From Micromonospora citrea (GTDB lineage Bacteria; Actinomycetota; Actinomycetes; Mycobacteriales; Micromonosporaceae): DNA of 64,000 bases. Of this stretch, positions 30,161 through 56,331 are shown in pieces (position 1 is the stretch's first letter; each line of letters begins with the position of its first letter). A model generated the notes under the pieces. It saw nothing but the letters and a program-made list of their open reading frames with translations, was not told where the DNA came from and made no database searches. The position numbers and the translations under genes were made by a program. The DNA is taken from positions 4,434,501 to 4,498,500 of the forward strand of contig NZ_FMHZ01000002.1 of assembly GCF_900090315.1 (NCBI RefSeq), read 5' to 3'.

Positions 30161-30205
30161 TACGATATCTGCGTCACGCAGATATCGCGTGACGCAGATA
30201 TCGTA
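30161..30205. promoter_or_regulatory. 45-bp MarR operator with nested dyads
   Basis: Two perfect 19-bp arms, TACGATATCTGCGTCACGC (30161-30179) and its complement (30187-30205), around AGATATC. A smaller dyad GATATCTGCGT/ACGCAGATATC (30164-30186, centre C) overlaps the left side, so two MarR dimers could bind in alternative registers. Lies between the MarR start and the start of the divergent gene. Confidence 0.8.
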
Positions 30206-46667: not shown

Positions 46668-47216
46668 TCAGGAGAACAGCTCCTCCGGCCGGACGGTGGC
46701 CCGGACGGGCTCGGTCAGCTCGAGCGCCTCCCCGGCCTTGGTGACCGACCGCTCGGCGTAGTGGGCGCCCTGCCACTGGTAGAGGTGCACGGTCAGCGTC
46801 TCCTGCTCCACCAGGAGATACCACTCGATGCCCGCCGCCGCGTAGTAGTGCATCTTGAGCACCTTGTCGGTGGCCGCGTTGCCCGGCGAGATGATCTCGC
46901 AGACCAGCTTCACGTCGGCCGCGTCGATCCAGGGGTCGTCGAGGTCGATCGGACCCGTGATCACGAGGTCGGGAATCGGGATGCGATCCGGCCGGAGCCG
47001 GACGTTCACCGCCTCCAGCAGCTCCAGCCCGAGGGCTTCGGCGCCGGGTTCGAGAAGGTTGCCCAGCCTGCGTGAGATGCGCTGGTGGCGGGGAGTGGGG
47101 GCTCGGGTCACGTGGAGGCTCCCGTCGAAGAGTTCGACGCGTTGCCGCGTCTCGCCGAGGGCGAGGTACTCCTCTTCGCTCCACGGGCCGTCGTGGCCGA
47201 ACACCGCCGCGGTCAT
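46668..47216 (-). CDS. Uma2-family (DUF820) restriction-endonuclease-like protein
   Basis: 182 residues. PD-(D/E)XK-like arrangement: ELFDGSLHVTRAPTPRHQRI early, IPIPDLVI with the Asp, DVKLVCEIISPGN as E-x-S, then KVLKMHYYAAAGIEWYLLVE. This family is common in actinobacteria and cyanobacteria in many copies, function unknown. Start ATG 47216 (MTAAVFGHDG) is preferred; the longer frame to 47276 lacks support. Stands alone between the sdh promoter region and the peptide transporter operon. Confidence 0.85.
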   Translation of the reverse strand: MTAAVFGHDGPWSEEEYLALGETRQRVELFDGSLHVTRAPTPRHQRISRRLGNLLEPGAEALGLELLEAVNVRLRPDRIPIPDLVITGPIDLDDPWIDAADVKLVCEIISPGNAATDKVLKMHYYAAAGIEWYLLVEQETLTVHLYQWQGAHYAERSVTKAGEALELTEPVRATVRPEELFS

Positions 47217-47412
47217 GGTCACCTCCACCTCGTGCCGGCGGGAATCCTCCGCGGACTGCCGCGCCCATCGTCGCACCCGCTGTGCGGGCGCGGGGACGTC
47301 AACGCCGATGAATGCCGAGGTGAGGGGGTGCGGGCCCGTTGCAGAGTCGTTACGCTGTGGCCCGCTGACAGTCCCCGGCCTTGTAGCTTATTTTCACCCT
47401 CGGTGATTTCCT

Positions 47413-47430
47413 GTAGGTTCTCTTCGTCAC
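47413..47430 (+). promoter_or_regulatory. Motif shared with dpp binding-protein promoter
   Basis: GTAGGTTCTCTTCGTCAC; 15 of 18 positions match the sequence at 52115-52132. Contains TAGGTT, possible -10. The distance to GTG 47445 is 14 nt, holding GGGAGG. Confidence 0.5.
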
Positions 47431-47444
47431 TGAGGGAGGCGGTC

Positions 47445-48548
47445 GTGGGCAGTCCGGAGTCGGCGTCGTCCGGGAGACCGGGCCGCCCCAGCGTGCCGGA
47501 ACAGCGTACCGGCGCGGATCCGTACCTGCGGGTGAACGACCTGCGGGTCCGCTTCGACACCGAGGACGGCGTGGTGCGCGCCGTCGACGGGGTGTCGTTC
47601 ACGGTGGAGCGCGGGCGCACGCTCGGCATCGTCGGCGAGTCCGGCTCGGGCAAGAGCGTCACCTCGCTGGCCGTCCTCGGCCTGCACGACGCCAGGCGGA
47701 CCACCATCACCGGGGAGATCTCCGTCGGCGGGCGCCAACTGGTCGGCCTGCCGGAGGAGGAGGTACGCCGGCTGCGCGGCCGGGACATGGCGATGATCTT
47801 CCAGGATCCGCTGTCGGCGCTGCACCCGTACTTCACGGTGGGCCGGCAGATCGCCGAGGCGTACCGGGTGCACCACCCGAAGGCCGGCAAGCGCGAGGCC
47901 CGTCGGCGCGCGGTGGACATGCTGGGCCGGGTCGGCATCCCGCAGCCCGCCCGCCGCTTCGACCAGTACCCGCACGAGTTCTCCGGCGGGATGCGGCAGC
48001 GGGCGATGATCGCGATGGCGCTGGTCAACGACCCGGACCTGCTGATCGCCGACGAGCCGACCACCGCCCTGGACGTGACGGTGCAGGCGCAGATCCTCGA
48101 CCTGCTGGCCGATCTCCAGGCCGAGTTCCACTCCGCGATCATCATGATCACCCATGACCTGGGCGTGGTCAGCCAGGTCGCCGACGAGGTGCTGGTCATG
48201 TACGGCGGCCGGGCCGTGGAGCACGGCAGCGTCGAGCAGGTGCTCCGCCGGCCGCAGCACCCGTACACCTGGGGTCTGCTCTCCAGCGTGCCCTCCCTGC
48301 ACGGTGACGCGGACGCGGACCTGGTGCCGATCAAGGGCAACCCGCCCAGCCTGATCAACCTGCCGTCCGGCTGCGCCTTCCATCCGCGCTGCCGGTACGC
48401 CGACCGCAACGGCGACCGCTCGCGCGCGGAGGTCCCGGAGCTGCGCCCGGCGGGCGCGCCCGGTCACCTGGTGGCCTGTCACCTCTCCGCCGACGACCGG
48501 ACCCGGCTGTACGCCGAGGACATCGCCCAGGTGGGAGTTGCCCGGTGA
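47445..48548 (+). CDS. dppD: Peptide ABC transporter ATP-binding protein (DppD/OppD type)
   Basis: 367 residues. After a 25-residue Pro/Ser lead comes the ABC domain: Walker [25 protein letters not shown], signature [17 protein letters not shown], Walker [14 protein letters not shown], and the C-terminal oligo_HPY domain with the FeS-like cysteines CAFHPRC. GTG 47445 has GGGAGG (47434-47439). The gene ends VAR with the stop overlapping the GTG of the first mini-ORF repeat (GTGA at 48545-48548). With 48722-53931 it makes a dipeptide/oligopeptide importer. Confidence 0.93.
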
Positions 48549-48607
48549 GCGCGAGGAACGCAGCGCAGCGGAGTCCCGCAGTCGCGAACGGAAGGCGGGC
48601 CCGGTGA
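48545..48607 (+). CDS. Coupled mini-ORF 1 (20 residues)
   Basis: GTG at 48545 overlaps the dppD stop (GTGA). Encodes [20 protein letters not shown], a basic peptide with no recognisable homologue; its TGA overlaps the GTG of mini-ORF 2. Confidence 0.4.
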
Positions 48608-48666
48608 GCGCGAGGAACGCAGCGCAGCGGAGTCCCGCAGTCGCGAACGGAAGGCGGGCCCGGTGA
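48604..48666 (+). CDS. Coupled mini-ORF 2 (20 residues)
   Basis: Identical in sequence to mini-ORF 1, starting at its stop codon (GTGA) and ending at the start of mini-ORF 3. Confidence 0.4.
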
Positions 48667-48725
48667 GCGCGAGGAACACAGCGCAGCGGAGTCCCGCAGT
48701 CGCGAACGGAGGCGGACTCCGATGA
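48663..48725 (+). CDS. Coupled mini-ORF 3 (20 residues)
   Basis: [20 protein letters not shown]; stop TGA (48723-48725) overlaps the ATG of the next ATPase gene (ATGA). Its changed 3' end creates that junction. Confidence 0.4.
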
Positions 48726-50032
48726 GTGTGGAGGCGGTCGTGGACGGTGGCGCGGCGGGCCGGCAGGCCGTGGAGCCGCTGCTGCGGGTGCGCGGGCTGG
48801 CCAAGCATTTCCCGGTGCGCAGCGGGCTGCGCACCACGGGCCTGGTGCGGGCGGTGGACGGGCTGGACTTCGACGTGCGCCCGGGCGAGACGCTCGGCCT
48901 CGTGGGGGAGTCGGGCTGCGGCAAGACGACCACGGGGCGGATGCTGGTCCGGCTGCTGGAGCCCAGCGCGGGGAGCATCGAGTTCGAGGGGCGGGACATC
49001 ACCCACGCGGGTCGCCGCGAGCTGCGCCCGCTGCGGCAGGACCTTCAGATCATCTTCCAGGATCCGTACGCCTCGCTGAACCCCCGGCACACCGTCGGCC
49101 GGATCATCGCGATGCCGCTCCAGGTCAACGGGATCGACCCGCCGGGCGGGATCAAGGCCCGGGTGCAGGAGCTGCTGGAGCTGGTCGGGCTGAACCCGGA
49201 GCACTACAACCGGTACCCGCACGAGTTCTCCGGCGGTCAGCGCCAGCGCATCGGCATCGCCCGCGCCCTGGCGCTGCGGCCGAAGCTGATCGTCGCCGAC
49301 GAGCCGGTCTCCGCCCTGGACGTGTCGATCCAGGCGCAGGTGGTCAACCTGCTCCGCGACCTGCAACGCGACCTGGGTCTCGCGTTCGTCTTCATCGCGC
49401 ACGACCTGGCCGTGGTGCGGCACTTCTGCCAGCGGGTCGCCGTCATGTACCTCGGCAAGATCGTCGAGATCGGCGACCGGGACGACATCTACGAGCGCCC
49501 GCAGCACCCGTACACCCGGGCGCTGCTCTCGGCGATCCCGGACGTCACCAAGCTCGGCCCGGCCGGCCGGATCCGGCTGGCCGGCGACGTGCCGACCCCG
49601 CTCAACCCGCCCTCGGGCTGCCGCTTCCGCACCCGCTGTTGGAAGGCCCAGGACATCTGCGCGACCGAGGAGCCGGCGCTGGCGCCCCGCGACGGCGGCG
49701 ACCAGGCCGCTGCCTGCCACTTCCCGGAGCGCGGGCCCGTCGAGACGGGCCCGGACGGCTCGGCGGCCACGCCCGCCGAGCCGTCGGCCACGCCCGAGCA
49801 GACAGGCCTGGACGCCTCGATGACCACGCCCGCCGAGGCGTCGGGCGCGGGCACCGGGCCGACGGCCACGCCCGCCGGGCCGACGGGCGCAGGCGCCGAG
49901 CAGACGGGCGCGGGCGCCGCGCAGACGGCCACGCCCGCCGAGCAGACGGGCGCGGACGCCGGGTCGGCAGGCCCGGGCGCGGGCACCGGAACGGCGGGCC
50001 CGGACGCGGGCGTCGAGGAGGTGTCGAGATGA
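48722..50032 (+). CDS. dppF: Peptide ABC transporter ATP-binding protein (DppF/OppF type) with low-complexity tail
   Basis: 436 residues. ABC domain with Walker [25 protein letters not shown], signature [17 protein letters not shown], Walker [14 protein letters not shown], then the oligo_HPY domain with CRFRTRC. The last 100 residues are an Ala/Gly/Thr/Pro tail of near-repeats ([21 protein letters not shown]). The normal family length is about 330. ATG overlaps the stop of the third mini-ORF. Its end shares ATGA with the permease start (50029-50032). Confidence 0.93.
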
Positions 50033-51036
50033 GCATGTCCCCGGTGGAGGGCGTGGCGCTTGCCGAGATCGAGTCGGGCGGCGACGCCGACGCGCCGAAG
50101 GAGAAGGGCTTCGTCGGCCGCTCGCCCGGCCAACTCGCCTGGATCAGGCTGCGCCGCGACCGCACGGCGATGGTCAGCGGGGTGATGCTGGTCTTCTTCG
50201 TGCTGGTGGCGCTCGCCGCGCCGCTGATCGAGATGCTCTACGGGATCAGCCCGCGCGACCAGTTCCAGAGCAAGCTGGACGGCTTCGGCATGCCGCTCGG
50301 CTACGCCGGTGGCGTGTCGGGTGAGCACTTCTTCGGGCTGGAGCCCAACCTCGGCCGGGACATCTTCATCCGGCTGGTCTACGGCCTGCGTACCTCACTG
50401 CTCATCGCCTTCGCGGCGGCGGTCATCACGGCGGCGCTCGGCATCGCGCTCGGCGCCCTCGCCGGCTACCTGGGCGGCTGGCTCGACGCGGTGATCAACT
50501 GGGTCACCGACCTGACGCTGGCCATGCCGTTCCTGGTCATCGCGCTCGCCCTGACGCCGACCCTGACGCTGCGCTTCTACGGCGAGCGGGACGCGGTCGA
50601 CCCGGCCTTCGGGGTCGGGGTGCTGATCGCCGTCTTCGCGATCTTCGGCTGGACCAGCACGGCCCGGCTGGTACGCGGTCAGGTGATCGCGCTGCGCGAG
50701 CGGGAGTTCGTGGAGGCCGCGAAGGCCAGCGGCGCGGGGCTGGGACACATGCTCTTCCGGCAGCTGCTGCCGAACATCTGGGCGCCGATCCTGGTGTCGT
50801 TCTCGCTGGCGGTGCCGCAGTTCATCACCAGCGAGGCGGCGCTGTCGTTCATCGGCGTCGGTCTGACCGAGGAGACCCCGAGCTTCGGCCGGATGATCTA
50901 CCAGAGCCTGGACTATCTCCAGACCGACCCGGCGTTCGTGTTCTTCCCCGGCATCACGATCTTCGCGCTCGTGTTCGCGTTCAACCTCTTCGGCGACGCG
51001 CTGCGCGACGCGCTCGACCCGAAGTCGTCCCGGTAG
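50029..51036 (+). CDS. dppC: Peptide ABC transporter permease (DppC type)
   Basis: 335 residues, six helices; N-terminal OppC_N region ([19 protein letters not shown]) and the EAA loop [20 protein letters not shown] before [23 protein letters not shown] overlaps the dppF stop. Pairs with the next permease as the translocation pore. The order ATPase, ATPase, permease C, permease B is unusual but seen in actinobacteria. Confidence 0.93.
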
Positions 51037-53988: not shown

Positions 53989-54015
53989 TCCGCGCGTCCG
54001 GGCCCGCTCAGCCCC

Positions 54016-54180
54016 GGTGCCGGCGGTCCGCGTGTCCGGGGCGGGTGCGGCGGCACGTCCAGTCCCGGTGCTGGCGGTCCGCGCGTCCAGGTCCGCTCAG
54101 CCGCGGTGCTGGCGGTCCGCGCGTCCGGGTCCGCTCAGCCGCGGTGCTGGCGGTCCGCGCGTCCGGGCCCGGCGCGGCGG
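54016..54180. repeat. Repeats of the S9 peptidase gene 3' end
   Basis: GGTGCTGGCGGTCCGCGCGT starts at 54067, 54105 and 54143 (38-bp period), with a degenerate copy at 54016. On the minus strand each copy reads CGCCAGCACC followed by GGCTGAGC, close to the last codons and stop of the adjacent S9 gene at 54187-54206. Confidence 0.75.
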
Positions 54181-54186
54181 GCGGGC

Positions 54187-56331
54187 TCAGCCCAGGTGCT
54201 GGCGGACGAAGTCCAGCTCCAGCCGGAGCAGGCGTTCCGCGGTGCCGCCGGCCGCCATGTGGGTGGCGCCCGTCAGCGGCAGCACCGAGTGCGGGCGGCC
54301 GGTCGCCAGCAGCGCCGCCGACAGGCGCAGCGTGTGCGCCGCCACCACGTTGTCGTCGACCAGGCCGTGCACCAGCAGCAGCGGCCGGGCCGCCGCCGGA
54401 TCCCGCACCGGCTCGCCGGCCAGCTCCACCAGCGAGTGGTGCGCGTAGATGTCCGCCCCGTCGTCCGGCAGACCCAGGTAGCGCTCGGTGTAGGCGGTGT
54501 CGTACAGCGCCCAGTCGGTGACCGGCGCCCCGACGACGCCGCACCGGAACAGCTCCGGGTGCCGCAGCACCGCCAGGCCGGCCAGCCAGCCGCCGAACGA
54601 CCAGCCGCGCACGGCGACCCGGGCGAGGTCGAGGTCGGGGTGCTTGTCGGCCAGCGCGGTGAGCGCGTCCACCTGGTCGAGCAGCACGACGTCCGCCACC
54701 CGGCGGTGGATCGCCTTCTCGAACGACGGGGCCACGCCCGGCGTACCGCGGTTGTCGATCGTGACCACGGCGAAGCCGGCGTCGGCCCACCACTGCCGCT
54801 CCAGCCAGGCCGAGCGGGCGGCGAGCACCTCCTGGTGGCCCGGCCCGCCGTAGACGTCCAGCAGCACCGGCAGCCGCCGCCCCGTGACGTAGTTGTCCGG
54901 ATAGAGCACCGCCGTCGGCAGCCGCCGGTCGGTGACCCGCTCCAGCAGCGGCAGCGGAGAGTACGGCGGGGTGGCGGCGAGCGAACGTAGCACCGCCACC
55001 TCGCGCTCGCCCTGCCAGACCGTCCACCGGGTGCCCGGGTGGTCGAGCGTGGCGCTGCCCACCACCAGCACGTCCCCGCCCACGGCGGCGGTGTACCAGC
55101 CCGGGTCGGTGGTGATCCGGCGCGCGTCGACACCGCCCCCGATCGTGGTGCGCACCCGGAACAGGTGCCGCTCGCTCGGCTCCCCGTCGCTCGCCTCCAC
55201 CAGCAGGTCGGCCGGGCCGGTGCCGCCCGGCAGCCGCCCCACCACCCGTCGCACGTAGAGCGACGGCGGGGTGAGCAGGGTCCCGTCGGCGAAGAGGCAG
55301 CGGGCGTCGTACCCGTCGTGGGCCAACTCGCCGCCGACCAGCACCCGGCCGTCCGGCAGGTGCGCCGGGGTGCCCGGGATCGGCTCCACCCAGCGCGGGT
55401 CCGCCAGCTCCGCGTGCACCTGCGTCTCGCCCGTGCGCGGGTCGACGGCGAGCACCAGGCCGTGCTGCTGGGAACGGCGTAGCACGGTGATGAGCGGCCC
55501 GCCGTCGGCCCAGTGCACCGCCGTCAGGTACGGGTAGGTCTCCCGGTCCCAGTGCACGTCGACCCAGCCGTCGTCGAGGTCGAGCAGGTGCAGGCTGACC
55601 TCCGCGTTCGGGCCGCCCGCCCGCGGGTACGCGACGGTGGTCGGCGGGGTCGCCGGGTCGGCCGGGTCGTGCAGGTGCCAGCGCTCCAGCCGGGACTCGT
55701 CCACCCGCGCGGCCAGTACCGAGCGCCCGTCGGGCGCCCACCAGTAGCCGCGGAACCGGTCGAACTCCTCGGCCGCGATGTGCTCGGCCAGCCCCCACGT
55801 GACCCCGGAGTCCTCGCCGGCCAGCAGGGTGTCCGTGCCGTCGCCCTCGACCACCCGCAGCTGCCCCCGGCGCACCCCCTCGGCGGCGTCGGTGACGTAC
55901 GCCAGGCGCTGCCCGGTGGGGTCGGGCCGCGGGTCGAGCACCGGGCCGACGGTGGCCACCTCGACCACGTCGCCGTGCACCAGGTCGGCCCGGAACAGCC
56001 GGCCGGCCAGCGCGAAGACCGCCACCCGGCCGGCGCCGTCCAGCGCGTACGAGCCGATGCCGGAAGCGCTCAGCCGCAGCCGCTCGCGCAACGCGCGCTC
56101 GCCCGGGCCCAGCGCGTCGACGTCGGCGTCCGCCCCGAGCAGCGCCGCCGGGTCGGCGACCAGCCGCTCCTCGCCGGTCGCCACGTCGAGCAGCCAGAGC
56201 GCGTCGGCCGGATCCTCCGGCCCGGCCGAGCGCAGGAAGACCACCCGGGAGCCGTCGTCGGCCACGCAGACCGCGCGCGGCGCTCCCCGGCTGAACCGGC
56301 GGGTGCGGGCGGCCAGCTCCGGAAAGTCCAC
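54187..56331 (-). CDS. S9 family prolyl oligopeptidase / dipeptidyl peptidase IV-like
   Basis: 714 residues. The N-terminal about 450 residues are beta-propeller repeats (DPPIV_N type; WAPDGRSVLAARVDES, and the VTWGLAEHIAAEEFDRFRGY site for the free N-terminus with a conserved Glu pair). The C-terminal alpha/beta hydrolase has the nucleophile GWSFGGWLAGL, Asp in HGLVDDNV and His in GATHMAAGG. No signal peptide, so cytosolic; it could trim peptides brought in by the adjacent Dpp importer. GTG start 56331 after TACGAT. Confidence 0.93.
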   Translation of the reverse strand: MDFPELAARTRRFSRGAPRAVCVADDGSRVVFLRSAGPEDPADALWLLDVATGEERLVADPAALLGADADVDALGPGERALRERLRLSASGIGSYALDGAGRVAVFALAGRLFRADLVHGDVVEVATVGPVLDPRPDPTGQRLAYVTDAAEGVRRGQLRVVEGDGTDTLLAGEDSGVTWGLAEHIAAEEFDRFRGYWWAPDGRSVLAARVDESRLERWHLHDPADPATPPTTVAYPRAGGPNAEVSLHLLDLDDGWVDVHWDRETYPYLTAVHWADGGPLITVLRRSQQHGLVLAVDPRTGETQVHAELADPRWVEPIPGTPAHLPDGRVLVGGELAHDGYDARCLFADGTLLTPPSLYVRRVVGRLPGGTGPADLLVEASDGEPSERHLFRVRTTIGGGVDARRITTDPGWYTAAVGGDVLVVGSATLDHPGTRWTVWQGEREVAVLRSLAATPPYSPLPLLERVTDRRLPTAVLYPDNYVTGRRLPVLLDVYGGPGHQEVLAARSAWLERQWWADAGFAVVTIDNRGTPGVAPSFEKAIHRRVADVVLLDQVDALTALADKHPDLDLARVAVRGWSFGGWLAGLAVLRHPELFRCGVVGAPVTDWALYDTAYTERYLGLPDDGADIYAHHSLVELAGEPVRDPAAARPLLLVHGLVDDNVVAAHTLRLSAALLATGRPHSVLPLTGATHMAAGGTAERLLRLELDFVRQHLG

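Follow-up and report, generated by a model that had tools for sequence, protein, structure and literature searches.

The window, a 64,000-nt stretch of the Micromonospora citrea genome, carries on its forward strand two ABC ATPase genes. The upstream gene, of the dppD type (47445–48548), encodes 367 aa if its start is the GTG at 47445, which was picked by reading and has GGGAGG upstream, and the downstream gene, of the dppF type (48722–50032), encodes 436 aa; both products match the Pfam families ABC_tran and oligo_HPY, and the dppF product also scores above the cut-off of NCBIfam NF008453. Downstream of both ATPase genes are encoded an OppC_N/BPD_transp_1 permease, a second BPD_transp_1 permease, and an SBP_bac_5 (family 5) binding protein. 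The combination of two ABC ATPases, two permeases, and an SBP_bac_5 protein identifies the cluster as a dpp/opp operon. Past the region encoding the oligo_HPY domain, dppF contains 21-bp, 63-bp, and 27-bp tandem repeats (49830–50011), i.e., a repetitive C-terminal tail. A GC-rich tandem repeat with a period of about 127 bp (53989–54248) lies directly 3′ of the binding protein gene, and a 16-bp tandem repeat, GATATCGCGTCACGCA, is present in 2.4 copies at 30164–30203.

The two ATPase genes are joined by three forward-strand repeat units with a period of exactly 59 bp, which start at 48545, 48604, and 48663 (TRF: 3.0 copies, 98% matches, score 338). A 50-base pattern taken from unit 1 and allowed up to 3 mismatches matched three times in the window and not once in any of 100 shuffles. 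Unit 1 (48545–48603) comprises a core (48546–48590) and a tail (48591–48603), unit 2 (48604–48662) is identical to it, and unit 3 (48663–48721) has one difference in the core and a different tail, which contains GGAGG. The dppD TGA (48546–48548) is the head of unit 1 and, as read from the window sequence, is overlapped by a GTG in the tetranucleotide GTGA (48545–48548). This GTG opens mini-ORF 1 (48545–48607), whose TGA overlaps the GTG of mini-ORF 2 (GTGA, 48604–48607); in the translation of the window, mini-ORF 2 (48604–48666) ends in turn on a TGA overlapping the GTG of unit 3 (GTGA, 48663–48666), and mini-ORF 3 (48663–48725) ends on a TGA overlapping the dppF ATG (ATGA, 48722–48725). Each mini-ORF has 20 codons, and the peptides of the first two are identical. 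The sequence-only reading had described this geometry, and it proved exact to the base. Its further statement that ribosomes could pass from dppD to dppF only by repeated reinitiation goes too far, since de novo starts are possible: read from the sequence, Shine-Dalgarno-like GGAAGG words lie 8 nt 5′ of the GTGs of unit 2 (48590–48595) and unit 3 (48649–48654), and a GGAGG word lies 9 nt 5′ of the dppF ATG (48708–48712).

An array of this kind could in principle be a structured RNA or DNA element, whether a REP-like palindrome, a terminator, an internal promoter, or a riboregulator. A local hairpin is possible at the dppF Shine-Dalgarno word, where an inverted repeat (48684–48724) with 11-nt arms (48684–48694 and 48714–48724) that are 91% complementary encloses that word and reaches the ATG; with such a hairpin, translation of dppF in M. 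citrea could become dependent on translation upstream. Mycobacterial interspersed repetitive units (MIRUs) between senX3 and regX3 are also said (PMC4213456) to be able to drive regX3 expression. Against a structured element, RNA folds of the final units of 129 arrays of the family described below were no better than those of shuffles (mean z +0.33; 2 under −2), and z ranged from −0.01 to +1.16 for four units. The four inverted repeats of the window array either use the dppF start region or are 8-nt repeats between two units, and the hairpin is local rather than a family feature, core plus tail folding no better than with exchanged tails. An Rfam scan of 47000–50200 gave 0 matches up to E = 1, and no sigma-70 promoter-like or terminator-like site was found in 48400–48900 by a simple scan that actinobacterial promoters may escape. 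On the unremarkable fold z-scores and the lack of an Rfam match we rejected a REP-like palindrome or other structured RNA, and a promoter or terminator as far as that simple scan reaches, and we judge a structured element very unlikely overall. In a CRISPR array the repeats are split by unique spacers; units 1 and 2 are identical over the whole 59 bp and have no spacers between them, and this candidate was rejected too.

The exact core of the unit occurs 18 times in the M. citrea genome (5 forward and 13 reverse matches), against 0 matches for a reversed-pattern control. The copies stand singly or two to three in tandem, and those that are readable lie mostly between a stop and a start codon. 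All 38 sampled Micromonospora genomes, M. citrea included, contain the exact core, with 1–44 matches each when tandem units are counted singly. It was found in 70 of 200 Micromonosporaceae genomes, representing 17 of the 44 sampled genera of the family (reversed pattern, 0), and in 2 of 296 phylum-wide genomes, both of the genus Micromonospora. The dppD-dppF unit is a dispersed repeat and not particular to the dpp operon, which bears out the earlier suggestion that it belongs to a wider intergenic repeat family. Searches of one open-access library by sequence words, organism, and topic listed no description of the Micromonospora repeat.

A scan of named genomes matched at least 120 stretches, and the matches listed (80 titles) came from Micromonospora, Verrucosispora, Plantactinospora, and Micromonosporaceae bacterium KJ-029. 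Together with the own-genome loci, these stretches gave 172 arrays (155 unique; a few degenerate and chance-like), and among the matches listed the unique arrays comprised 89 single, 40 double, 24 triple, and 2 quadruple arrays; one further array, fetched afterwards, has six units. Five unique arrays were too near a locus end, leaving 150 that could be classified, 143 with a forward downstream gene, and 129 once a TGA head and an assignable start were required. Upstream and downstream frames were called by GC content per codon position rather than from annotation. Orientation was mostly shared: the downstream gene was forward in 143 and reverse in 6 of the 150 arrays, the upstream gene ended on the head TGA in 114, both features coincided in 111, and the upstream side was scored as reverse-strand coding in 18. 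Unit lengths in the family range from 54 to 63 bp. Measured from the head TGA to AACG, three main cores of 42, 45, and 47 nt cover 126 of the 129 arrays, the remainder having rare cores of 38 nt (2 arrays) and 48 nt (1 array). The downstream start is GTGA or ATGA in 122 of the 129 arrays and is preceded by a Shine-Dalgarno-like word in 116.

The dppD-dppF junction itself was compared across 87 loci (30 + 57) from M. citrea and other Micromonospora genomes, comprising all listed matches at ≥81% DNA identity and leaving aside matches at ≤79%, which are likely paralogues; some genomes contribute two loci. Unit number varies from 0 to 3 among these loci: 11 have one unit, 3 have two, 3 have three, and 70 have no full unit. 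In all 70 unit-free loci dppF is in frame from the −1 codon overlapping the dppD stop, a direct 4-nt overlap. A stop/start trace of the 17 unit-bearing loci entered the dppF frame through mini-ORFs in 15. The expectation that the 4-nt overlaps would persist as unit number changes therefore held for these 15 loci, and at another (L172) the first GTG lies in frame with dppF. It failed at L175, whose 58-bp unit breaks the relay so that the trace enters dppF in the wrong frame; presumably dppF is produced there all the same. Mapped on a tree of the loci, the absence and presence of units needs 10 changes, of which at least 7 are forced by well-supported branches, so units come and go at this junction.

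Variation between 0 and 3 units among relatives would fit an array that is a regulator, with the number of repeats or reinitiations setting the DppD:DppF ratio; for repeat number, the sequence-only reading had raised this as a possibility. Each reinitiation is expected to lose some ribosomes, which also counts for such a role. On the other side, most of the same-genus loci listed lack a full unit, the family adjoins 70 clusters of downstream genes across the 129 arrays, and each start in the window has its own Shine-Dalgarno-like word. We found no support for ratio tuning and consider a regulator improbable; a unit that is missing in full form from 70 of 87 junctions and adjoins 70 downstream-gene clusters looks more like a mobile element that is tolerated than like a regulator of one operon.

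The relay was examined across the 129 arrays by comparing the length of the core with the distance from the core end to the downstream start. This distance is mostly 13 nt when the core has 42 or 45 nt, and 11, 12, or 14 nt when it has 47, and core and tail lengths modulo 3 are strongly associated (chi-square p = 6 × 10−21, a value that treats as independent arrays that are not). With the final unit, the downstream gene falls in the relay frame in 105 arrays and in the frame of the head GTG in 19; 5 arrays show neither. When the arrays are reduced to 89 distinct combinations of downstream cluster, core, and tail, the counts are 69 relay, 15 in frame, and 5 neither, whereas permuting the tails gives 37.1 ± 4.4 relay and 24.6 ± 3.3 neither. 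A ribosome-like trace reached the downstream start in 101 of 129 arrays, gave an in-frame extension with an array GTG in 16, and did neither in 12, of which, by reading, 5 have a TGATG, i.e., a 1-nt overlap. Adding 1 nt in silico after the last core left 5 of 129 arrays reaching the downstream start and turned 105 into in-frame extensions; adding 2 nt left 20 of 129 reaching it and 4 in frame. Coupling by any route is thus a weak test, because +1 nt makes in-frame extensions of most arrays, and the strict relay alone discriminates. Unit lengths that break the frame relay had been named in advance as evidence against it, and they do occur, 24 of the 129 final units being off the strict relay; 16 of the 129 arrays are nonetheless in frame with an array GTG. 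Periods within arrays are looser than the final units: of 94 interior periods, 55 are 2 mod 3, 37 are 0 mod 3, and 2 are 1 mod 3, so that 39 leave the strict relay, and those of 0 mod 3 fuse mini-ORFs and do not block closure.

How strongly these frame statistics speak for selection depends on where the tails come from. Were the tail taken from the target at each insertion, the agreement of frames would argue strongly for selection on closure. Should tails move together with the element, the agreement may reflect a few ancestral lengths (56 = 42 + 13 + 1, 59 = 45 + 13 + 1, and 59 = 47 + 11 + 1) rather than 89 independent events, and what is then left is the set of compensating core and tail changes between subfamilies and a weak off-mode bias. 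As candidate target-site duplications, tails were compared with flanks in the 129 arrays, and clear excess identity relative to shuffles was confined to positions −2, −3, and −5 before the TGA (z = 7.0, 4.7, and 4.6), with exact flank-tail matches of 10–13 bases before the TGA at 3 of 129 loci (L072, L159, and L065). In the three-unit array L207, the tails repeat 20 bp of the array's own flank, GCGAGAGGCGGCTGCCATGA, and this sequence is held once by the unit-free neighbors of L207, exactly in L202 and with two changes in L209. Part of the tail is probably borne by the element, since flank-tail similarity is weak at most loci and, by reading, tails resemble each other across loci. The localized excess identity and the 10–13-base matches in 3 of 129 loci mean that the target-derived and the travelling-tail views are each partly true.

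A neutral repeat of fixed length, in which frame agreement is no more than a few inherited lengths, 2 mod 3 by chance, and the relay goes unused, draws on the same data. The dominance of three cores suits it, as do the 39 interior periods off the strict relay and the weakness of the bias among 34 off-mode tails (14 relay, 15 in frame, and 5 neither; three-way p = 0.07, p = 0.013 for avoidance of "neither"). Against it, subfamilies agree modulo 3: relative to the 42-nt core, the commonest tail is changed by 0 nt for the 45-nt core and by −2 nt for the 47-nt core. The rare 38- and 48-nt cores are also in the relay frame, and among two-unit arrays from other genera (n = 4) one closes (L259) and in two the first GTG shares the frame of the downstream gene (L256 and L258), but one does not close (L257). 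We regard a neutral repeat as unlikely. Functional mini-ORF peptides, which the recurrence of open frames of 19–20 codons might suggest, are disfavored to the point of being extremely improbable: by reading, the second half of the 47-nt core is read in a frame other than that of the 42- and 45-nt cores, so the DNA is conserved and the peptide is not, and the candidate was rejected on this difference in reading frame. Because the 47-nt core shifts the frame while its shorter tail keeps closure, it is closure that is conserved rather than the peptide. Geometry and frame statistics give the relay good support, and translation along it is putative.

Eight arrays, the four two-unit arrays from other genera among them, were added for their long or odd periods or because they came from other genera, and were then traced. 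The trace entered the downstream gene through mini-ORFs in L254, L255, L259, and L260, showed one frame shared by the first GTG and the downstream gene in L256 and L258, and did not close in L257 or in L261, which has no assignable downstream start. In L254, where the upstream gene was not recognized, six units form a single 120-aa frame, which closes on the gene that follows. In L255 (G021:C1:5098200-5100200), with 61-bp periods, a strict relay of the 59 type fails, and overlapping ORFs of 25, 41, and 16 codons reach the downstream start.

The closest described counterparts are the MIRU repeats of mycobacteria. As defined in PMC4473831, these lie between genes, lack dyad symmetry, and carry small ORFs that overlap the adjoining ORFs and run in the same direction; PMC12548453 describes them as seemingly mobile, inserted at start codons with −4 nt spacing, and likely to have minimal impact on expression. 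The copies at senX3-regX3 are given as 77 and 53 bp in PMC4213456, both 2 mod 3 like the Micromonospora relay units. The two share location at gene junctions, gene orientation, overlapping small ORFs, the −4 nt overlap, variable tandem copies, and a lack of dyad symmetry. The Micromonospora repeat is dispersed at many loci (18 exact cores in the M. citrea genome and 1–44 in each of 38 genomes); in 101 of 129 arrays overlapping mini-ORFs lead to the downstream start, matching the definition given in PMC4473831; dyad symmetry is lacking (mean fold z +0.33, n = 129); and all 70 unit-free loci, which represent one junction, have a coupled DTGA site. It differs from MIRU in its bacterial family, in its units of 54–63 bp with three main cores, and in that, among the genomes sampled, the exact core was found outside its own genus only within the Micromonosporaceae. 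We call it MIRU-like and not MIRU, the likeness being one of described features.

Overlaps of the ATGA and TGATG types strictly coupled 13 of 14 gene pairs in Haloferax and Escherichia coli, according to PMC6728339, and the geometry of such termination-reinitiation coupling is that seen at the unit borders; in contrast to plain coupled pairs, the Micromonospora family has an inserted repeat that restores the overlap, and several such overlaps can follow in series. RU-type repeats (PMC2759123) resemble the unit in being short, dispersed, intergenic, and presumably nonautonomous. In REP/BIME elements, which share these traits, the repeats are imperfect palindromes with a stable hairpin. The fold tests detected no such hairpin in the Micromonospora units, which differ from both REP/BIME and RU in having no stable fold and in a placement tied to stop and start codons.

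The three units at dppD-dppF are, we think it likely, copies of a selfish element of the MIRU-like kind, which goes into coupled stop/start sites and leaves the coupling intact by means of a translated mini-cistron. The element is a small dispersed repeat of the Micromonosporaceae that would be mobile over evolutionary time, entering junctions where an upstream stop overlaps a downstream start (DTGA) and regenerating the overlap at both of its ends. It holds a GTG over the upstream stop, a short stop-free frame, and a Shine-Dalgarno-like word, and it ends in DTGA. A ribosome ending dppD could then initiate again on the mini-ORFs and move on to dppF, local tandem duplication would produce multi-unit arrays, and the element, as we propose, would spread because coupling is spared, which may also be the cause of the frame bias. 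More tentatively, and with a little less than even confidence, the family can be read as a second MIRU-like class, perhaps of independent origin, that has spread in the Micromonosporaceae under selection to close the stop-start relay. This broader reading rests on the covariation of core and tail lengths modulo 3, on units of 0 mod 3 that fuse and still close (L254), and on the 61-bp array that closes (L255); if true, it would make the repeats genome-wide natural evidence for serial termination-reinitiation in vivo.

The dppD-dppF array is a member of a little-known kind, an apparently mobile repeat that spares coupling, and suggests that MIRU-like elements are not confined to mycobacteria. 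With about forty exact core copies at most in one genome, and with empty-site counterparts at dppD-dppF in close relatives, the family could be used to ask whether ribosomes traverse chains of 4-nt overlaps, what share drops off at each overlap, and by what means mobile repeats persist inside operons without uncoupling them. The arrays may also serve as variable-number markers for Micromonospora strains. Two of the 70 unit-free loci (L184 and L218) hold what look by eye like decayed units, now fused in frame as the dppF start, a possible path from a mobile repeat to a new N-terminus.
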